DNA from: an uncultured Bacteroidales bacterium
GTDB lineage: Bacteria; Bacteroidota; Bacteroidia; Bacteroidales; UBA932
Direction: 5' to 3'
Length of the DNA stretch: 64,000 nucleotides
NCBI GenBank assembly: GCA_946055165.1
Contig: CAMGFA010000004.1
Span: forward strand, 1-64,000
Below the pieces are notes generated by a model, which made no database searches, had not been told where the DNA came from, and worked only from the letters and a program-made list of their open reading frames with translations. Positions 1 through 63,201 of this stretch are shown in pieces. Numbering within the stretch: position 1 is the stretch's first letter; each line of letters opens with the position of its first letter. The position numbers and the translations under genes are program-made.

Positions 1-44
1 TTTTCAGTCAAAATAGCGAAAAAAGGCCCTATTTTCGCTAAAAT
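1..44 (-). repeat. Family C repeat unit (reverse orientation), ttttcagtcaaaatagcgaaaaaaggccctattttcgctaaaat
   Basis: Reverse complement matches the unit at 62971-63020. Contains the inverted repeat TAGCGAAAA/TTTTCGCTA. Confidence 0.75.
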
Positions 45-110
45 GGCCCCGTAGCTAAACCAGTCCCGTAGCTACAACTCTGCTCAAGTCCCGCCATCTA
101 AAATAACACC

Positions 111-207
111 GGAATGTTTGAGCGTAGCGAGTTCCCGGCCATCACCGACTTCGCAGGCCAAGCCGCAGCGCGCATCGCCTGAAAGCCATGAGCTGGCTGC
201 CTCGCAG
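111..207 (+). repeat. Family A dispersed repeat, copy A1 (left half missing)
   Basis: tgtttgagcgtagcgagttcccggccatcaccgacttcgcaggccaagccgcagcgcgcatcgcctgaaagccatgag is shared with copies at 30.2, 39.5 and 61.8 kb. Confidence 0.9.
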
Positions 208-351
208 GACAAACAGGGTTTTTCACGTGATCTTTGATTATTGCAGACCTTTTGAAATTTGTTGCCCAAAGAAAGAAGTAGGCCGCTTTCTGCAACGTTG
301 TGCAAAGATACTGCATCTATTACGGTGGTGTATACTAAAAACTTTTTTGTT

Positions 352-30120: not shown

Positions 30121-30171
30121 ACCGACTCGGACTTCGCTGCTGTGAAAATGTCCTGCTAGGCGGCCGGGCTC

Positions 30172-30270
30172 ATGGCTGGAAGGCTTGCAGCGCAAGGGAA
30201 CTGTGCGAGCAATGGACGCAAGGCGTCCATCCGCGAGCGCAGCTTGGGCCAGAAGGAGGTGAAACAATGA
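30172..30270 (+). CDS. Putative micro-ORF 1 of family A repeat (MAGRLAAQGNCASNGRKASIRERSLGQKEVKQ)
   Basis: Open frame shared in A2, A3 and A4; overlaps micro-ORF 2 by ATGA. No proof of translation. Confidence 0.2.
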   Translation: MAGRLAAQGNCASNGRKASIRERSLGQKEVKQ

Positions 30271-30344
30271 CCGGGGTGTTTGAGCGAAGCGAGTTCCCGG
30301 CCATCACCGACTTCGCAGGCCAAGCCGCAGCGCGCATCGCCTGA
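30267..30344 (+). CDS. Putative micro-ORF 2 of family A repeat (MTGVFERSEFPAITDFAGQAAARIA)
   Basis: AAGGAGGT 6 nt upstream of the ATG; frame conserved in all four copies. Confidence 0.25.
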   Translation: MTGVFERSEFPAITDFAGQAAARIA

Positions 30345-30442
30345 AAGCCATGAGTCTGGCTGCCTAGCAGTGTGTAAAACGGCACTTTTACACATAAAAA
30401 TGAAAAATTAAGACTTTATCGTGATTATTTCCGCAAATAGCG

Positions 30443-31453
30443 CTATTGTTTATTGATAATACTATTCTCAATTTCTTGCAGTTCAAGCATATCTTGCCTA
30501 TCTGCCTCCAAAGCTTCATATTCACGTCTCCTCTGGTCATATTGTTCATAAATCTCTTTGACGTGTTTTTCCATCACCTGATTGGAAATTCGCCCAGCGT
30601 CAGGCAATATAGTCTGGTTCTGAAATGTCAGCATCGCATCAACGTAGTTGCGCCAAAAACTCATTGTGAGATCTCGACGCTCTTTTACTCTCAGCTCAGC
30701 TGATTCGAGAAAGATTGTGACTAGTCGGTTTAATTTATCAAGTTCATTCTCATGAAGGTAATTCTTGGCAATGAATATATCTTGTTTGCGAACAATACTC
30801 CCTTTCCATGAAGTAAGACCCATATTAGGTCTTTCGGCATCAGCCCGTTCCATAATTAGTTCTGCGGCAGTATGATTTGTTACCGCATACAGAAGTTTGT
30901 TTTGCGTCTCTGCAAAGAACATCTGGACTGATTTATCGCTTGCATCATAGTCACTGCTAAGTGCAAATAATTCCCTGAGTTTTTGATAAAACCGTTTTTC
31001 TGATGCTCTGATATCCCTAATTTTGGAAAGCAGTTCATCAAAATAATCGGGTCTGCCATCAGGATTTTTCAAACGATCAGAATCAATAACAAAGCCCTTT
31101 ACCAAATACTCTGATAAGTTTCTCGTGGCCCATTGGCGGAACTGGATGCCTCGAACACCTTTGACACGATAACCAACAGCTAACACCATATCCAGAGAGT
31201 AATGTTCCACCATATATTGCTTTCCATCAGAAGCAGTTGTCAAAATATTTTTGACAACTGCAATCTTGGGTAATTCTTTCTCTTTCAATATATTGGTAAT
31301 ATGATAGCTGATAGACTGTTTGGAGGTGGCAAAAAGTTCCGCCATCTGTAATTGGTTTAGCCAAACCATTCCATCTGCACCTATAAGAACTACCGATGTT
31401 TTTCCATCATCAGTATTGTAGATAATGATGTCATTCTGCTCCATTCTTCCCAA
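30443..31453 (-). CDS. RhuM family (virulence protein-like) protein
   Basis: NQLQMAELFATSKQSISYHITNILKEKEL ... VEHYSLDMVLAVGYRVKGVRGIQFRQWATRNLSEYLVKGF. Confidence 0.88.
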   Translation of the reverse strand: MGRMEQNDIIIYNTDDGKTSVVLIGADGMVWLNQLQMAELFATSKQSISYHITNILKEKELPKIAVVKNILTTASDGKQYMVEHYSLDMVLAVGYRVKGVRGIQFRQWATRNLSEYLVKGFVIDSDRLKNPDGRPDYFDELLSKIRDIRASEKRFYQKLRELFALSSDYDASDKSVQMFFAETQNKLLYAVTNHTAAELIMERADAERPNMGLTSWKGSIVRKQDIFIAKNYLHENELDKLNRLVTIFLESAELRVKERRDLTMSFWRNYVDAMLTFQNQTILPDAGRISNQVMEKHVKEIYEQYDQRRREYEALEADRQDMLELQEIENSIINKQ

Positions 31454-39332: not shown

Positions 39333-39349
39333 ACTGTTTGGTGTTATAA

Positions 39350-39462
39350 CGGCAGAAGGGTAGTTCGCCTTCAGAAACTCCTCCCCACTGCGCGCCGAGC
39401 GCTTGTGGGTCCCCTCCTTCCTCAGGAGACGAGGTTTCTTCCGGCGAACTACCCTTCTGCCG
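39350..39462 (-). repeat. Family B structured repeat, copy B1
   Basis: Perfect 20-bp terminal inverted repeat CGGCAGAAGGGTAGTTCGCC/GGCGAACTACCCTTCTGCCG; core cctcgtctcctgaggaagga on the minus strand. Confidence 0.9.
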
Positions 39463-39500
39463 TAAATCCAACCAGTTGTAAATGATGAACTGTAAGTAAA

Positions 39501-39719
39501 CTGCGAGGCAGGCAGGTTTGTGGCTGAAAGGCTTGCGGCGCAAGGGGACTGCGCGAGCAATGGACGCAAGGCGTCCATCCGCGAGCGCAGCTTGGACCAG
39601 AAGGAGGTGGAACAATGGCCGGGGTGTTTGAGCGTAGCGAGTTCCCGGCCATCACCGACTTCGCAGGACAAGCCGCAGCGCGCATCCGCCTGAAAGCCAT
39701 AAGCCTGGCTGACTCGCAG
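39501..39719 (+). repeat. Family A dispersed repeat, copy A3 (complete)
   Basis: Left CTGCGAGGCAGGCAGGTTTGTGGCT; right AGCCATAAGCCTGGCTGACTCGCAG inverted repeats; core identical to other A copies. Confidence 0.93.
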
Positions 39720-43215: not shown

Positions 43216-45657
43216 ATGAAGAAACTCGACCGTTTCATACTTAAAGCCTTTATCGGGCCTTTTGTCGCCGTCCTTCTGGTGGTGGTGTTCATCCTTATGC
43301 TCCAGTTTCTCTGGGTGTATATAGATGAACTTGTGGGCAAAGGCCTGGGCTTCAAGGTGATACTCGAGTTTATGATGTGGGGTACTTGCACCATCCTCCC
43401 TCTCTCCCTGCCTCTTGCCACCCTGCTCGCCTCGATGATGACTCTCGGTCAGATGACGGAGAACAACGAGCTTCTGGCAATCAAGGCCAGCGGAGTGTCT
43501 CTTGTGAGGGTGATGATACCCCTCACGATAGTATCGGCCTTCATTGCCGTGGGAGCCTTCTTCGTCGGCAACAATCTTGTGCCGAAGGCCTACAATGAGA
43601 TCTTCACCCTTCGCGACGACATCTCCCGCACCAAGGAGGAAATCAAGATCCCGTCCGGAACGTTCTACGACGGAATCGACGGCTACATCCTCCGTGTCGA
43701 GGACCAGAGCAAAGACGGAATGATGCACTCCGTGATGGTTTACGACCATACTTCCAAAAAGGGCAACATCTCCATCACCCTTGCCGATTCCGCCACGATG
43801 CGCCTGTCCAAGTCCAAAGATTATCTCATCTTCACCCTTTACAACGGCACCAACTACCAGGAAAGCAACAGCCGCAAGAACAAGGAGGACATACACGAAC
43901 TGCAGAAAATCTCTTTCGACAACCAGCAGCTCATCATTTCCCTCTCCAACTATGCCTTCCAAAAGAGTGACGAGGCCCGATACGGCAATCAGACAATGGC
44001 CAAGAAGGTGACCCAGCTCCGCTTTGAGCGCGACTCCCTCAGGGCCGTGAGCGATTCGGCCGATATCAAACATTACAAAAAGCTCAAGGACGGCAATTTC
44101 CTGCTCTTCAAGAAACAGCTGGACACTGCCTGGACGGCAGCCCACAGCACAAATTTCGAGGATGAGAGTTTCCTCACATGGAAGAAGAGAAAGGACAAGA
44201 TACGCGCACTGAGCCAGGCGGCCGACAAGGCCAATGCCATGGCCGGAGAACTCACCGGCTACAGCAGCGAGACCTATGTGGACCAGTTCTATCTCAGGCA
44301 CAGCAGTGTGGAACTGCTGAAGAAGTTTGCCCAGGCTCTGGCCTGCTTCATCCTCTTCTTCGTGGGAGCCCCTTTAGGTGCCCTCATAGGCAAGGGAGGG
44401 CTGGGAACCAGTGCCATCATTTCCGTTCTGTTCTTCGTGCTCTACTGGGTGGTGGACATCTCCGGCATCAAGCTGGCGAAGAATGGTGCAGTGGGTGCCC
44501 CGATAGGAGCTTTCATCTCCTCAATGGTACTTTTCCCGATAGGTATGTACCTGTCGTGGAAGGCAGTACACGATTCTCCGATTATCAACATGGATTCCAT
44601 AAAAGCTTCATTCAGGAAACTGGCCAGCAAAATAGGCGGCCTCTTCCGCAAAACAAGAATTGTCTATATGGGCACTCCGGAGTTCGCAGTGGCTCCTCTC
44701 GATGCCCTTGTAAAACACAAATACAATGTGGTGGGCGTTGTTACCGTGGCCGACAAGGCCAGCGGACGCGGCCTCAAAGTGAACGAAAGTGCGGTCAAAA
44801 AGTACGCTGTGGCACACAATATTCCTGTGCTTCAGCCTCTTAAGCTCAAAGACCCCGAATTCCTTGCCCAGCTCAAGGCCCTCAAGGCCGACATCTTTGT
44901 TGTCGTTGCCTTCAGGATGCTTCCGGAAGAGGTGTGGAAGATGCCGCGTCTGGGTACTTTCAATCTCCATGCAGCCCTGCTTCCTCAATACAGGGGAGCC
45001 GCCCCTATCAACTGGGCTCTTATCAACGGTGAAAAGATTACCGGTGTAACCACATTCATGATAGACAAGAACATAGATACCGGTGGAATTATTCTGCGCC
45101 AGGAATGCCGAATTTCCGATGAGGACAATGCCGGAACCGTTCACGACAAGCTTATGGCTATGGGCTCGGACCTTGTACTCGAAACGGTTCAAGGAATAAT
45201 CGAGAAGAATGTCGAGACCCGCACCCAGCGCAGCTTCGTTCAGGGCAGCGAGGTGCTCAAGCCTGCTCCAAAGCTCACTCCGGAACTCCAGAATATAGAT
45301 TGGAATGCTCCGGCCCTGCAGATTCACAATCTTGTGAGAGGTCTGAGCCCGTATCCTGCAGCCTATACCTATATACAGAAAGAAGGCGCGGAGCCTCAGC
45401 TTCTGAAGATTTTTGCTTCTGCTGTTGTTGCTGCTCCTGAAAATCTGCCTGCCGGAACCATATTAAGTGACGGAAAGAGCAGTCTTTCCATTGTCTGCGG
45501 CGATGGTAATGCTCTCGAACTCAAGGATGTTCAGTTGCAGGGCAAGAAGCGTATGCCTGTAGGGGACTTCCTTCGCGGTTGGCGCGATGCTGGCCTTTAC
45601 AAGGCTCTTTGCGGAACTTCTGCCGCAGAAATTGCAAGACTCAAAGAAAAAAAGTAA
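43216..45657 (+). CDS. In-frame fusion: LptF/LptG (YjgP/YjgQ) family permease - methionyl-tRNA formyltransferase (Fmt)
   Basis: N-terminal YjgP/Q: FILKAFIGPFVAVLLVVVFILMLQFLWVYIDELVGKGL ... PLATLLASMMTLGQMTENNELLAIKASGVS. From about residue 478, RKTRIVYMGTPEFAVAPLDALVKHKYNVVGVVTVADKASGRGLK ... FNLHAALLPQYRGAAPINWALINGEKITGVTTF (Fmt). Confidence 0.88.
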   Translation: MKKLDRFILKAFIGPFVAVLLVVVFILMLQFLWVYIDELVGKGLGFKVILEFMMWGTCTILPLSLPLATLLASMMTLGQMTENNELLAIKASGVSLVRVMIPLTIVSAFIAVGAFFVGNNLVPKAYNEIFTLRDDISRTKEEIKIPSGTFYDGIDGYILRVEDQSKDGMMHSVMVYDHTSKKGNISITLADSATMRLSKSKDYLIFTLYNGTNYQESNSRKNKEDIHELQKISFDNQQLIISLSNYAFQKSDEARYGNQTMAKKVTQLRFERDSLRAVSDSADIKHYKKLKDGNFLLFKKQLDTAWTAAHSTNFEDESFLTWKKRKDKIRALSQAADKANAMAGELTGYSSETYVDQFYLRHSSVELLKKFAQALACFILFFVGAPLGALIGKGGLGTSAIISVLFFVLYWVVDISGIKLAKNGAVGAPIGAFISSMVLFPIGMYLSWKAVHDSPIINMDSIKASFRKLASKIGGLFRKTRIVYMGTPEFAVAPLDALVKHKYNVVGVVTVADKASGRGLKVNESAVKKYAVAHNIPVLQPLKLKDPEFLAQLKALKADIFVVVAFRMLPEEVWKMPRLGTFNLHAALLPQYRGAAPINWALINGEKITGVTTFMIDKNIDTGGIILRQECRISDEDNAGTVHDKLMAMGSDLVLETVQGIIEKNVETRTQRSFVQGSEVLKPAPKLTPELQNIDWNAPALQIHNLVRGLSPYPAAYTYIQKEGAEPQLLKIFASAVVAAPENLPAGTILSDGKSSLSIVCGDGNALELKDVQLQGKKRMPVGDFLRGWRDAGLYKALCGTSAAEIARLKEKK

Positions 45658-57941: not shown

Positions 57942-57990
57942 CCTAAAATTAAGATATGAAGAGACTATAATCTTGATAATCAAATTCAAT

Positions 57991-60900
57991 ATGAAAAGAT
58001 TTTTTTGTTTGTCCGCTACGATTCTATTGTTATTCGCAGGGTGTTCTGAGGTAAATGTGCCTGAAGAACTTCTTAATGGAGATTTGATTGGTCGTCTTGA
58101 TGATTTGGAATCGAGAGTAGATGACCTGGAACAGCAATGCAAAAAAATTAACTCTGACATTGCCGCTTTGCAGGCGATTGTAAATGCTGTTCAGACAAGA
58201 GACTACATTACTGCTGTGGAGCCCGTTGTGGAAAACGGTGTGGAAGTGGGATGCAGAATTGTTTTTGCAAATGCCAATCCGATTGTTATTTATCACGGCA
58301 AAGACGGTACAGATGGTACAGATGGTAAAGATGGAGAAGATGGCAAGGACGGAGCAGATGGTGAAAACGGACAGGATGGAGTAGCTCCTGTTATTGGAAT
58401 TGCCCAGGATTCCGACAGTGTTTGGTATTGGACGCTGAATGGAAATTGGCTCCTTGATGATGCTGGAAATAAAATCAAGGCTGTTGGTGTTGATGGTGCC
58501 GACGGCAATGACGGAACAGATGGCCTTGATGGAAAGGATGGTGTGACTCCAACATTGCAAATCACTGAAGGTTATTGGGAAATATCTTATGACAATGGTG
58601 TTACCTGGACCAGATTGGGCAAGGCTGTCGGTGAAGACGGAAAAGATGGTCAGGATGGAGTTGGTAACTGCATTATCAGCAAGGTTTATGAGGATAATGG
58701 CTATGTGGTATTTCTGCTTTCAACAGGAGAAGAATACAAAGTCCCTTTTTCTGCCAATAGTCTTGATATTATTTTCTCTGTAGAACCAGGCTTTGGCTTG
58801 ATGCCGGGTAAAACAACGGTAATAGATTACACTATTGTTGGTGGCGATGAAAATACACTTGTAAGATTAATTCCAGGTGAAATATTGGAATGTGTTGTTA
58901 AAGCAAAAAGTAATACAGAAGGGTCCATTTATATTAAAGTATGGCCACATGATGAGGATGCTTGGGATAGGATCATTGATCCAGATGTGTATGGAGATGC
59001 AACATATGGGGATATGATGGAGCCTATGTATGCCCTTTTGGTAAGTGTCTCCGACGGAAAAGGAAATACTGTTTTGAAATCTTTGAATTTTGCACACGGT
59101 GTGCTTGAATCAATATGTGATGCATATTTGGTTGATGCTACCGCCGGTTTGATTACAACCACAGTTAAGGCTAATACTTCCTATGATGAGGTTGTTTATG
59201 ATGCGTCTTGGCTTTCATTCGTTGAAACCAAGGCAATGCGAGAAGATAAACTAACATTTGCTTATGAGGCTAATGATTCAGACAGATATCGCAGTACTAT
59301 TGTGTATTTGAAAAATACTCTTGGCCAAACTTTGGAATCTTTTGCAATTGCTCAAAGAACTGCTGCATTGTCCGGCAATATTGAATTTGCGGATTTGAAA
59401 GTAAAGGATATTTGCGTGCAGAGATATGATAAGGATGGTGACGGAGAGTTGTCGTACGATGAGGCAGCACTTGTAACAGATGTAAACGGATTGTTCGATG
59501 ATGTCTTTGAATCAATCAAATCTTTTGATGAATTCCAGTTTTTTATATCAGTAAATAAGCTTCCGGACGAATTCTTTTTGGATTGTACTGCTTTGGAATC
59601 TACCATTCTGCCAAATAATTTGGATTCTCTTGGTCGAGGAGTATTTGCAAACTGCACTGCTTTGAAGAGTATTACAATTCCTGAAGGAGTGACATCTATT
59701 CTTGATTACTGTTTCACGGACTGTACGTCTTTAAAGGAGATCAATTTGCCAGAAATTCTTAATGAAATCGGCAGTTATGCTTTTTATCACTGTTCATCAT
59801 TGGAGAGCATCACAATTCCAGAAGGAGTGACATCTCTTCCTTATGCATGTTTCAGGGGCTGTACGTCTTTAAAGGAAATTAATTTGCCGGAAACTCTTGA
59901 TATAATCGGCGAATATGCTTTTGAAAACTGTTCATCATTGGAGAGCATCACAATTCCAGAAGGCGTAAAAATAATTGATGAGCAATTTTATAGTTGTGTG
60001 TCTCTTAAGAGAGTATATCTTCCGAAATCAATAGTGGAGTTAAACGGGAGAACATTTTGGGATTGTGAAAATGTGTCATTTGTGTTGCGCGCAACCACTC
60101 CGCCATTAATCAGAGAATTAGAGAATTATATGATTTATGTGCCAAACGAGGCTATTTCAGTTTATCGTGAATTGTATCCGGATTGTTCTTTCCGCCCAAT
60201 ATCTATTATGGAAAATATTACAGAATCGTGGGATATTATGGGCTCAATGACCAATTGGGAAAGAACAGTTTCATTCATTGCTTCTGGGGACAAGTATGTA
60301 ATCAAAGAACTTAAGTTGAGTGCTTCTGATGAATTTGTAATAAGAGGCGGAAATGAAACTGTACTGTACAATTCTTCATATTCGCTTGGAGAAAATGGCA
60401 GTTCCTTGACTTTGGGTGAATCGGGATCTTACATTCAGGTGGCTGACGATGGCCTTTATGATTTGGAGTTCGATCCGCTTTCCAAGACCATCTCATTCAA
60501 AAGAGTAGTGGCACAAATCGCAGCATGGGCGGAACTTCCGTTGGTGAACGATTACGACCGCAATGGCCGTGACGATTCCGATGCTTCGCTTTATTACGCT
60601 TATCATTTTACTGACCTCAAGGCTCCGGACGGAAGCAAGGCCCGCAATTATACGGTCTGCTTCAGCGGGGAGCATCACTGCCCTGTGTGGGTCTCCGCTC
60701 CACGGCACAATATGTATCAGGTGAAGAAAGTGAACAGGACCGATGCCTACAAGGCCGATCCCGACATTCCTTACGACATTCAATATCATAGCAAGAGTAC
60801 GGGAGGCGGCTGCAACAAGGGTCATATGCTGGGATCGGCCGAAAGACTGGCTTCCAGAACCACCAACGAGCAGGTATTTTACTATTCCAACATTGCCCCG

Positions 60901-61344
60901 CAGCTTTCTGCCGGTTTCAATACCGGAGGCGGCGGATGGAATATACTTGAAGATTATATCGATACTCAGGTCTGCCCAGATACTTTGTATGTAGTAATCG
61001 GCTGTTATTTCGATACCTATACCGACGGCTACGGCAAGAAAGCCAGCCCGAAGAGAATAGAGTTCGGTGGCCGCAGCGATGTATCTTTCCCGACGATGTT
61101 CTATTATGCGCTTCTGCGTACAAAGAGCGGCTCGTCGCATAAGGCAGTGAAGGATTGCAAGGCAGATGAACTGCAATGCGTTGCTTTTGTCCGTTCCCAC
61201 ACCAACGAGCTTAAGGGACAGGAAGTGAGCTCAAAGGAAATGATGTCCATCGCCGATTTGGAAAAAATCACCGGATTCACTTATTTTGTAAATGTTCCTC
61301 AGGCTCCGAAAAAGAGCTACAAGGCATCGGATTGGGATTTGTAA
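57991..61344 (+). CDS. Mosaic surface lipoprotein: DUF4988-like coiled coil + collagen-like repeats + BACON-like + EF-hand-like + BspA LRRs + beta-sandwich + NUC endonuclease domain
   Basis: Lipobox LLLFAGC; GTDGTDGKDGEDGKDGADGENGQDG; DKDGDGELSYDEA; LRR units ...CTSLKEINLPE...IG.YAF..CSSLESITIPEGV; C-terminal NUC domain identical to 55686-56753. Confidence 0.85.
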   Translation: MKRFFCLSATILLLFAGCSEVNVPEELLNGDLIGRLDDLESRVDDLEQQCKKINSDIAALQAIVNAVQTRDYITAVEPVVENGVEVGCRIVFANANPIVIYHGKDGTDGTDGKDGEDGKDGADGENGQDGVAPVIGIAQDSDSVWYWTLNGNWLLDDAGNKIKAVGVDGADGNDGTDGLDGKDGVTPTLQITEGYWEISYDNGVTWTRLGKAVGEDGKDGQDGVGNCIISKVYEDNGYVVFLLSTGEEYKVPFSANSLDIIFSVEPGFGLMPGKTTVIDYTIVGGDENTLVRLIPGEILECVVKAKSNTEGSIYIKVWPHDEDAWDRIIDPDVYGDATYGDMMEPMYALLVSVSDGKGNTVLKSLNFAHGVLESICDAYLVDATAGLITTTVKANTSYDEVVYDASWLSFVETKAMREDKLTFAYEANDSDRYRSTIVYLKNTLGQTLESFAIAQRTAALSGNIEFADLKVKDICVQRYDKDGDGELSYDEAALVTDVNGLFDDVFESIKSFDEFQFFISVNKLPDEFFLDCTALESTILPNNLDSLGRGVFANCTALKSITIPEGVTSILDYCFTDCTSLKEINLPEILNEIGSYAFYHCSSLESITIPEGVTSLPYACFRGCTSLKEINLPETLDIIGEYAFENCSSLESITIPEGVKIIDEQFYSCVSLKRVYLPKSIVELNGRTFWDCENVSFVLRATTPPLIRELENYMIYVPNEAISVYRELYPDCSFRPISIMENITESWDIMGSMTNWERTVSFIASGDKYVIKELKLSASDEFVIRGGNETVLYNSSYSLGENGSSLTLGESGSYIQVADDGLYDLEFDPLSKTISFKRVVAQIAAWAELPLVNDYDRNGRDDSDASLYYAYHFTDLKAPDGSKARNYTVCFSGEHHCPVWVSAPRHNMYQVKKVNRTDAYKADPDIPYDIQYHSKSTGGGCNKGHMLGSAERLASRTTNEQVFYYSNIAPQLSAGFNTGGGGWNILEDYIDTQVCPDTLYVVIGCYFDTYTDGYGKKASPKRIEFGGRSDVSFPTMFYYALLRTKSGSSHKAVKDCKADELQCVAFVRSHTNELKGQEVSSKEMMSIADLEKITGFTYFVNVPQAPKKSYKASDWDL

Positions 61345-61528: not shown

Positions 61529-61689
61529 GCGTTCTTGAGGGTCTTGCCGAAAGAGACCTCGTCTCCTGAGGAAGGAAGGGGCCCACAAGCGTAGCGAAGT
61601 GGGAAGGAGTCTCTGCATATCATCTTGCCGAAATCACTGCACTTCTGCTTGCCGATAACACTCTGAAGGCAAGGACCCTCAAGCACGCG
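61529..61689 (+). repeat. Family B structured repeat, copy B2 (with about 50-bp insertion)
   Basis: gcgttcttgagggtcttgccgaaagagacctcgtctcctgagg ... ctctgaaggcaaggaccctcaagcacgcg; CTCTG duplicated around the insert. Confidence 0.88.
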
Positions 61690-61747
61690 AAGAAAGAGCC
61701 CACAAGCCCGCGCAAAAAGATGAGGAGATTGCTGATGAAACTATGTC

Positions 61748-61966
61748 CTGCGGGGCAGCCGGGGTCGTGGCTGGAAGGCTTGCGGCGCAAGGGAACTGCG
61801 CAAGCAATGGACGCAAGGCGTCCATCCGCGAGCGCAGCTTGTCCAAGAAGGAGGTGAATAAATGGCCGGGGTGTTTGAGCGAAGCGAGTTCCCGGCCATC
61901 ACCGACTTCGCAGGCCAAGCCGCAGCGTGCATCCGCCTGAAAGCCACGAACCTGGCCGACTCGCAG
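61748..61966 (+). repeat. Family A dispersed repeat, copy A4 (complete)
   Basis: Left CTGCGGGGCAGCCGGGGTCGTGGCT; right AGCCACGAACCTGGCCGACTCGCAG; core shared with A2 and A3. A second partial core (gcaatggacgcaggatggccatccgcgagcgcagc) follows at 61968. Confidence 0.92.
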
Positions 61967-62175
61967 GGCAATGGACGCAGGATGGCCATCCGCGAGCGCA
62001 GCATGGTACAGAAGACGTCTTCATTATGACTAATAACGCCAATTCCAAGCAACTGCATAGGGCTGATATCTGTTGACGCAGATCTTTTGGCGGCGATAAT
62101 ATAAGGACTCTCACCCAAGGGCTTGTTGGAAGAGCATATTTTATGCGGATTTCTGCTCAAATCCAACTGAAAAAG

Positions 62176-62231: not shown

Positions 62232-62746
62232 AATACCCAAAAGATGCTCGAATCCAGAAATCAGAGCAGAATAAGGTGGTTTTTCTGCTCTCGACCAAGT
62301 TAATGAAAAGGTAACACCTGCCTGTCTGCCGACAGCTCAAGTGAGACCTAACTTTGTTGTATAAATACAAACTGACAATATGCTTACACAAGAACAGGTC
62401 GAAGAATTGGTGGGTGTGCCAGATGTAATGATGGACATTGAGGAGGGCATCTGGAACGGGATGTATTGCTGGAACAAGTGAGTGGAGGTGGATGTGCCAG
62501 ATGTAATGGTTTTGCTTGCCTCGTGAAATTCATCGGGCACGGCAAAGTCCATTCTACGTGCGTGAGTGGCATATCCTTGTGCTCAACGGCACATCAAATT
62601 GGGTGCCATCGAGCACCTTACATATTTTCATATTACTGATAATCAGTGTGTTAAGTATTGTCGTTGTGCTCGATGTTTTTCTCGAAGGCAATTCTTCCAA
62701 TTTGCGAGTTGCTTGTGGAGCGTTTTCATTAATTGATCACCGCAGG

Positions 62747-62849
62747 GCGAAAGTTATTTCCGCGCACTGTCGTTGGTTGAGGTCCTGGAACTATGTGCAG
62801 TGTTCATTATCATCAACCACAGGCGAAAGTTATTTCCGCGCACTGTCGT
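62747..62849 (+). repeat. 27-bp direct repeat pair gcgaaagttatttccgcgcactgtcgt (62747-62773, 62823-62849) with inverted partial copy at about 62892-62904
   Basis: Direct reading; inverted match gaataactttcgc. Confidence 0.88.
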
Positions 62850-62943
62850 CGCGCCTGAGCTCTGTGGGTGGCTCCGCGCGCCGACCTGGCAGAATAACTT
62901 TCGCTGGCAGGAACATCTAGCACGGTGATGCTATAGGACGCGG

Positions 62944-62972
62944 GCTTGAGGGTCTTGCCGAAAGAGACCTCA
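62944..62972 (+). repeat. Family B repeat, truncated copy B3 (left terminus only)
   Basis: ggcttgagggtcttgccgaaagagacctc, then junction to family C. Confidence 0.85.
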
Positions 62973-63082
62973 TTTTAGCGAAAATAGGGCCTTTTTTTGC
63001 TATTTTGACTGAAAATACTTCATTTTAGCGAAATTAGGCCCTTATTTCGCTATTTTGACTAAATTACTTCATTTTAGCGAAA
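62971..63082 (+). repeat. Family C tandem repeat (about 2.3 units of 49-50 bp)
   Basis: cattttagcgaaa...ctattttgact... at 62971, 63021 and 63070 (partial); inverse of window positions 1-44. Confidence 0.9.
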
Positions 63083-63100
63083 GCCACGAGCCTGGCTGAC
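63079..63100 (+). repeat. Family A right-terminus fragment A5
   Basis: gaaagccacgagcctggctgac matches the right ends of A3 and A4. Confidence 0.75.
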
Positions 63101-63103
63101 CGG

Positions 63104-63201
63104 CCTTGCCGAAAGAGACCTCGTCTCCTGAGGAAGGAAGGGGCCCACAAGCGTAGCGAAGTGGGAAGGAGTCTCTGAAGGCAAGACCCTCAAGAATGCG
63201 C
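63104..63201 (+). repeat. Family B structured repeat, copy B4
   Basis: cttgccgaaagagacctcgtctcctgaggaaggaaggggcccacaagcgtagcgaagtgggaaggagtctctgaaggcaagaccctcaagaatgcgc. Confidence 0.9.

Follow-up and report, generated by a model that had tools for sequence, protein, structure and literature searches.

The repeat families A and B are apparently mobile folded elements of one class, in which the core is fixed and the closing stem can be changed almost completely and yet remain paired. We observed directly their dispersal, their fold and its covariation, a contrast in diversity between arms and core, the replacement of whole stems, the inversion of elements and, mainly for B, insertion in frame within genes. 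The window, i.e. the whole stretch of 64,000 nucleotides that was analysed, corresponds to contig C4 of a 54-contig assembly that is 96% complete and amounts to 1.70 Mb. The genome, that of a gut bacterium, probably belongs to Candidatus Cryptobacteroides, because the relatives of a protein encoded in the window are from Bacteroidales MAGs, two of them Candidatus Cryptobacteroides, the closest having 73% identity.

With its 219 bp, A is short, non-coding, present in many copies and bounded by terminal inverted repeats of 25 bp, i.e. it has the form of a MITE. Searching the whole genome with the element gave 42 BLAST matches (best non-self E 1.7e-94), which correspond to 17 full-length and ~25 partial copies, including a diverged singleton (L160), in agreement with the original prediction of a dispersed MITE/REP-like element. 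All three complete copies that had been placed in the window were found (Table 1), and many more lie outside it. A supposed half copy at 111-207 turned out not to be a simple half: it is the right-hand portion of A (119-219) within a second and recurrent form, A', in which a terminal inverted repeat is followed by a tandem array of D units, by C, and by A[119-219]. An end fragment reported near the end of the window is present, but it is the right arm of A joined to an array of 50-bp D units within a B element. The uniform orientation of the copies holds inside the window and fails genome-wide, since the A copy of L131 is inverted relative to the neighbouring module H when compared with L147. 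The clusters containing A are intergenic: by a simple longest-ORF gene call, convergent neighbours are the commonest arrangement (10 of the 25 clusters with both neighbours called), divergent ones are the rarest (2), and none of the clusters was seen to have A inside a gene.

Table 1. Elements of families A, B, D and E located in the window.
Feature	Positions	Strand	Details
Variant A'	1-232	+	D unit 1-43, C 45-106, A 119-219 at 109-207, F 209-232; at contig start
Full A copy A2	30153-30370	+	Stem arms 30153-30177 and 30346-30370
Hairpin P3 of A2	30201-30242	+	CTGTGCGAGC AATGGACGC AAG GCGTCCAT ... GAGCGCAG; from the fold, covariation helix 5
Hairpin P4 of A2	30252-30314	+	GAAGGAGGTG...ATGACCGGG...CCCGGCCATCACCGACTTC; contains the start of an SD-ATG mini-ORF and GCGNAGC at 30284-30290; from the fold
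Diverged B element	39349-39463	-	21-bp perfect stem of its own, 39349-39369 / 39443-39463, with no sequence relationship to the stem usual in B
Full A copy A3	39501-39719	+	From the sequence and a BLAST match
B element, interrupted	61529-61747	+	Interrupted by an insert of ~50 bp; followed by the Bk linker, 61712-61747
Full A copy A4	61748-61966	+	Preceded by a B element and the Bk linker
Extra A fragment	61968-62014	+	A 57-103; immediately after A4
E hairpins	62746-62904	+	Partial 62746-62773, full 62822-62904
B element, opened	62945-63199	+	Two parts, 62945-62971 and 63102-63199, with a D tandem array (62973-63072) between them
A right-arm fragment	63079-63100	+	Fused to the D array; from the module decomposition

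Several genes in the window were noted as well. The first full copy, A2, is adjoined by a gene encoding a RhuM-family protein (PF13310, E 1e-106; 30443-31453, minus strand). A large protein encoded at 57973-61344 (plus strand) has leucine-rich repeats of the BspA type and a C-terminal DNA/RNA non-specific endonuclease domain, and its gene includes a 138-bp internal tandem repeat. Finally, a single ORF at 43216-45657 (plus strand) matches LptF/LptG in its N-terminal half and methionyl-tRNA formyltransferase in its C-terminal half, and full-length relatives of this ORF are present in Bacteroidales.

The A2 copy folds with an energy of -131.6 kcal/mol (z -9.67), a value reached by none of 200 shuffles. 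The minimum-energy fold consists of a terminal stem of 25 bp, which confirms the terminal inverted repeat at a length slightly above the ~24 bp originally given, of an inner stem, and of two hairpin branches. The hairpin CTTGC-GGC-GCAAG, which had been described as conserved, is an alternative to this fold, where the segment pairs with GCGCATCGCC. Ten pairs have changed on both sides among the 17 copies, against a mean of 4.5 in shuffles and 1-5 in slid controls, the number of double-changed pairs rises to 19 when L160 is included (5.2 in shuffles), and the two arms of a copy pair at 82.2% Watson-Crick against 78.7% when arms are permuted (p = 0.0004), all of which are optimistic values because shuffle and permutation controls leave shared ancestry in. 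The individual changes that had suggested covariation are real, both the A:T, G:T, G:C series of the inner arm and the T:A to G:C change of the outer arm. However, L143 has a changed right arm without the matching change on the left, given which the coupling of the arms is strong rather than perfect. Mismatches in the arms include many G.U cells. Pairing is also kept after the exchange of a whole block in the A copy of L153, where the apex of hairpin P3 was swapped from GGACGC-AAG-GCGTCC to GGCCTT-GAA-AAGGCC. The N of the GCGNAGC motif in hairpin P4 differs among copies. Overall, diversity is 3.6 times as high in the arms as in the core (pi of 0.184 versus 0.051). The claim that pairing of the ends is selected therefore stands in so far as terminal pairing is maintained, but this does not establish selection on an RNA as the cause, because template switching predicts the same covariation.

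The singleton L160, found on contig C31 at the same place as L024, is the one case where the core of A is kept and the terminal stem has been replaced while still being paired. Its core has ~80% identity to A and its loop has the same 168 nt; its terminal stem is near-perfect and wholly different from that of A (TTTTGAGCCGAAGAGACTTTGGCATCT / AGATACCAAAGTCTCTTCGGCTCAAAA). Relative to the consensus fold of A, 18 pairs have changed on both sides and remain paired, 5 have changed on one side and remain paired, and 5 are broken. L160 occupies almost exactly the gap between two convergent genes, its stem is followed by no T-run on either strand, and the surrounding gene order, which we searched in congeners for an empty site, is not conserved in them. 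We also considered A as a protein-coding mini-gene starting at the SD-ATG mini-ORF, and rejected this because the changes in L160 fall mostly in codon positions 1 and 2 and a perfect stem replaces the SD.

Copies of A are embedded in a nested mosaic. Decomposition of the collected stretches surrounding the A matches gave the modules E (a hairpin of 83 nt), B (a hairpin of 109 nt), the Bk linker, A (219 nt), C, D (a tandem unit of 50 bp), F, G and H. They frequently follow the order E-B-Bk-A-F, a composite bounded by similar outer ends in inverted orientation (GGATCACGTGAAAAACCCTGTTTG at F and GGNTCAGGTGCAAAACCCTGTGTG at the left). Units of D form spacer-less tandem arrays within both A and B elements and lie at many contig ends, which explains the fragmentation of the assembly. 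Some of the mosaics located at contig ends could be due to errors of assembly, and interior copies are safer. Some loci have additional repeats: L132:2181-2259 is a diverged E hairpin, the inner stem of which (GTCGGCGCG/CGCGCCGAC) pairs better than that of the multi-copy E, and in L150 and L168 a further repeat family links E to B, in the form of ~90-bp tandem repeats whose motifs include GTGCCAGATGCAATG and ATCTGGCACGGTGATG.

This organization might be thought to result from a classical MITE, mobilised by a DDE-type enzyme by means of the 25-bp ends or of the F ends that bound the E-B-A-F composite, then shuffled into mosaics by recombination, in which case the pairing of the arms would simply be an inherited terminal inverted repeat. 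The inverted ends common to full copies, the related outer ends of E-B-Bk-A-F, the abundance of mosaics and solo ends, and the precedent of BrickBuilt MITEs with internal tandem arrays in Porphyromonas (PMC4596501) all fit this scenario. Yet, conservation should be highest at ends that a transposase recognises, and the arms of A are the least conserved part of the element and are absent altogether from L160. No target-site duplication was seen by eye in the flanks of A, where borders are blurred by neighbouring modules, and no clean empty site was found for A. We thus regard a DDE-type MITE as an unlikely explanation.

The replacement of stems is much more extensive in family B. Its core, of ~75 nt, has three hairpins in the ~80 distinct elements of the loci that we fetched. 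It was found in at least 58 of 399 sampled congeners, which is a lower bound since a composite query matched 62 of them, four by other parts of the query only, and two candidates were scored per genome. A pattern search across 395 genomes of the order gave 24 matches in the genome under study, three in a single genome from another genus in its family, and no others. A pseudoknot of 5 bp joins the first hairpin's loop to the strand after this hairpin, and we found it in the versions CCCTC:GAGGG, CCCGT:ACGGG, CCCGC:GCGGG, CCCAT:ATGGG and TCCGC:GCGGA. These positions are paired at 98.9% over 57 sequences; two of the pairs have 24 double changes each, and a single G.U cell was counted. The stems of B are locus-specific, many having 20-32 bp and some up to 32 perfect bp, and their median pairing score is 13, which drops to 7 if each arm is combined with that of another locus. 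Counts over 38 elements, picked for their good stems and hence selected for pairing, gave 833 Watson-Crick, 10 G.U and 13 other positions. The arms have a pi of 0.10-0.13, versus 0.009 for the core. The same core is kept within different stems in the B copy at 39349 of the window and at ~80 loci of congeners; in L339, two copies ~1.6 kb apart in one genome have different perfect stems of 30 bp. The cores of A and B are not homologous beyond short motifs, and the motif GCGNAGC is common to both. The DNA oligonucleotide d(GCGNAGC) forms an unusually stable mini-hairpin, and its presence in both cores would suit a role as single-stranded DNA.

Orthologous sites of different species show how stems change in place. 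The flanks of B elements at these sites are ~68-80% identical and the arms are rewritten, to the point that the arms of L274 and L304 have an identity of 0.31, which is the level of shuffled sequences, for flanks at 73-75%. The core is inverted between L277 and L323, and in L300 relative to both L274 and L304. The locus-specific stems might suggest that hairpins already present, e.g. terminators, receive a core in their loop, in which case each stem would be the target; L160 and the B copy at 39349 do lie between convergent genes, and there are insertion sequences known to target REP palindromes (PMC1525189). However, a pre-existing target should not change far more than its flanks, as the arms of L274 and L304 do, the stem of L160 lacks the T-run of a terminator on both strands, and long perfect stems are also present where copies lie inside genes, e.g. 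32 bp in L277. Such targeting is, in our opinion, highly improbable.

Copies of B are found in frame within genes encoding a SpoU/RlmB-like methylase (L336, L347), FolC (L340), YhhN (L277, L323) and HemW (L294). Matches to the methylase query came from 287 of 300 genomes in the genus, and the element is absent from all 30 orthologues displayed. L336 and L347, which form a close pair, differ by 12 nt on one side of the element, and on the other there is a gain of 6-7 nt, which is the complement of the host codons abutting the stem; this change of the arms could not be polarised against the 30 methylase orthologues because the loop is too variable. The RlmB-like methylases of L374 and L382 have, in the same loop, an unrelated palindromic insert in frame (CATTCCGAGCGAAGCGAAGGAATCT, read HSERSEGI) that contains GCGAAGC, and a second family of palindromes may thus use this loop.

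If A and B encoded functional structured RNAs, or elements acting at the 3' end of genes, compensation would reflect selection on the RNA fold and copy number would reflect useful amplification. The covarying helices and pseudoknot, the conserved core, the G.U cells in the stem of A (which selection on RNA would also give) and the tendency to lie at gene 3' ends, convergent neighbours being the most common (10 of 25 clusters), are consistent with this. But B is found in both orientations relative to genes, even within the same gene in two species (L277/L323), insertions occur within unrelated genes, A is known from one species only with many truncated and chimeric copies, and no Rfam family corresponds to these elements. 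Searching Rfam with the window returned only a tRNA, and 12 B loci of congeners gave only matches far below the gathering score, which led us to reject a known RNA family for A or B. In our view, functional RNAs have a low probability as an explanation.

The distribution of A is narrower than that of B. We found no DNA match to A in 60 relatives, and a covariance model of its core, searched in 400 genomes of the genus with seven candidates scored per genome, detected it in its own genome and in none of the 399 congeners. Exact 31-36-mers gave no match in 85,488 species genomes and viral contigs, a collection possibly leaving out records near the genome under study, and we rejected a phage or plasmid origin of A for lack of a match. 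The genome has no match to the Y1 (TnpA-REP) transposase (PF01797), for which controls matched in 5 of 14 genomes, which argues against the REP/RAYT route of mobilisation put forward in the original prediction. It has also no match to the reverse transcriptase profile (PF00078; controls matched in 3 of 14 genomes), and we thus rejected RNAs of retrons, diversity-generating retroelements or group II introns.

Precedents exist for palindromic repeats that are dispersed, for MITEs with tandem arrays (BrickBuilt, PMC4596501) and for palindromes within genes (RPE, PMC10969869), and our comparisons with RPEs, BrickBuilt and Correia elements rely on published descriptions. RPEs are short palindromic repeats of ~150 bp, in several families, located between genes and in frame inside protein-coding genes (PMC10969869). 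They resemble B in the latter trait, but they are families of sequences, whereas the stems described here are locus-specific, the B core is pseudoknotted, and A was seen in no gene. BrickBuilt MITEs of Porphyromonas gingivalis are intergenic and species-restricted, with a leader and a tail that have small inverted ends and flank a spacer-less array (PMC4596501). They share with A' the order Bacteroidales and the array between inverted ends (the D array in A'), but their unit has 23 bp instead of the 50 bp of D, and neither a covarying core nor a replaceable stem is described for them. Like A, REPs and BIMEs, or REPINs with their RAYT (TnpA-REP), are high-copy palindromes in intergenic mosaics (PMC2817692, PMC3116915), but REPs have 20-40 bp (PMC3733652), against 219 bp for A, and the genome with A lacks a detectable Y1 transposase. 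Correia elements of Neisseria are MITEs of similar size to A for which inversion was reported (PMC10969869), but their description includes no replaceable stem (PMC10969869). Finally, template-switch (quasipalindrome) mutagenesis produces homogenised arms, inverted spacers and the creation or repair of stems in one event (PMC8604942, PMC8794818), but it is a mutational process of unrelated sites, whereas its recurrent target in our case would be a dispersed family whose core is conserved. We found in neither Rfam nor the open-licence papers searched any element that, throughout a genus, keeps its core and has matched stems that can be replaced.

We give an even chance to A being a non-autonomous mobile hairpin repeat within a nested mosaic, probably of the same kind as B, with a core that is recognised and arms that are free to change as long as they match. 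According to this model, the element would consist of a conserved folded core, with several hairpins and, in B, a pseudoknot between a loop and a strand, and of a long closing stem of free sequence and matched sides. It would act as a folded single strand, most likely single-stranded DNA transiently exposed at replication, and an enzyme recognising the core would move it to new places. Recognition, or another function of the folded core, is suggested in A and B by the conservation of the core and, in B, of the pseudoknot. The complementarity of the arms would be kept partly by the need for the fold and partly by template switching at replication, which could use one arm, possibly along with host sequence next to it, as the template for the other. 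When it occurs between inverted repeats, template switching is reported to homogenise their arms and invert the spacer (PMC8604942), and also to create and maintain hairpins (PMC8794818). The rewritten arms and the inverted cores fit such a process, and arms are probably re-matched by it as well as by selection. What we infer is that the intermediate is single-stranded, that recognition occurs in trans, and that the arms are matched through template switching. The extension from B to A is an analogy that would go beyond the evidence of L160 and L131, and is suggested by L160, by the contrast between arms and core, by the shared GCGNAGC motif and by the inverted copy of A in L131. A stronger version of the model, which we find possible but somewhat doubtful, is that these elements make up an undescribed class of selfish palindromes of Cryptobacteroides, whose core is conserved (and pseudoknotted in B) and whose stem is renewed by inverted copying of adjacent DNA, so that a perfect hairpin is kept wherever they lie, even within genes.

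If this model is correct, a repeat family with a lasting fold and a replaced terminal sequence would provide a natural test to separate covariation caused by selection from covariation caused by a copying process, and would bear on the use of base-pair covariation as proof of functional RNA. These elements would also add a case in Bacteroidales to the few mobile elements that insert in frame within genes, and would explain why the assembly breaks at so many repeats.
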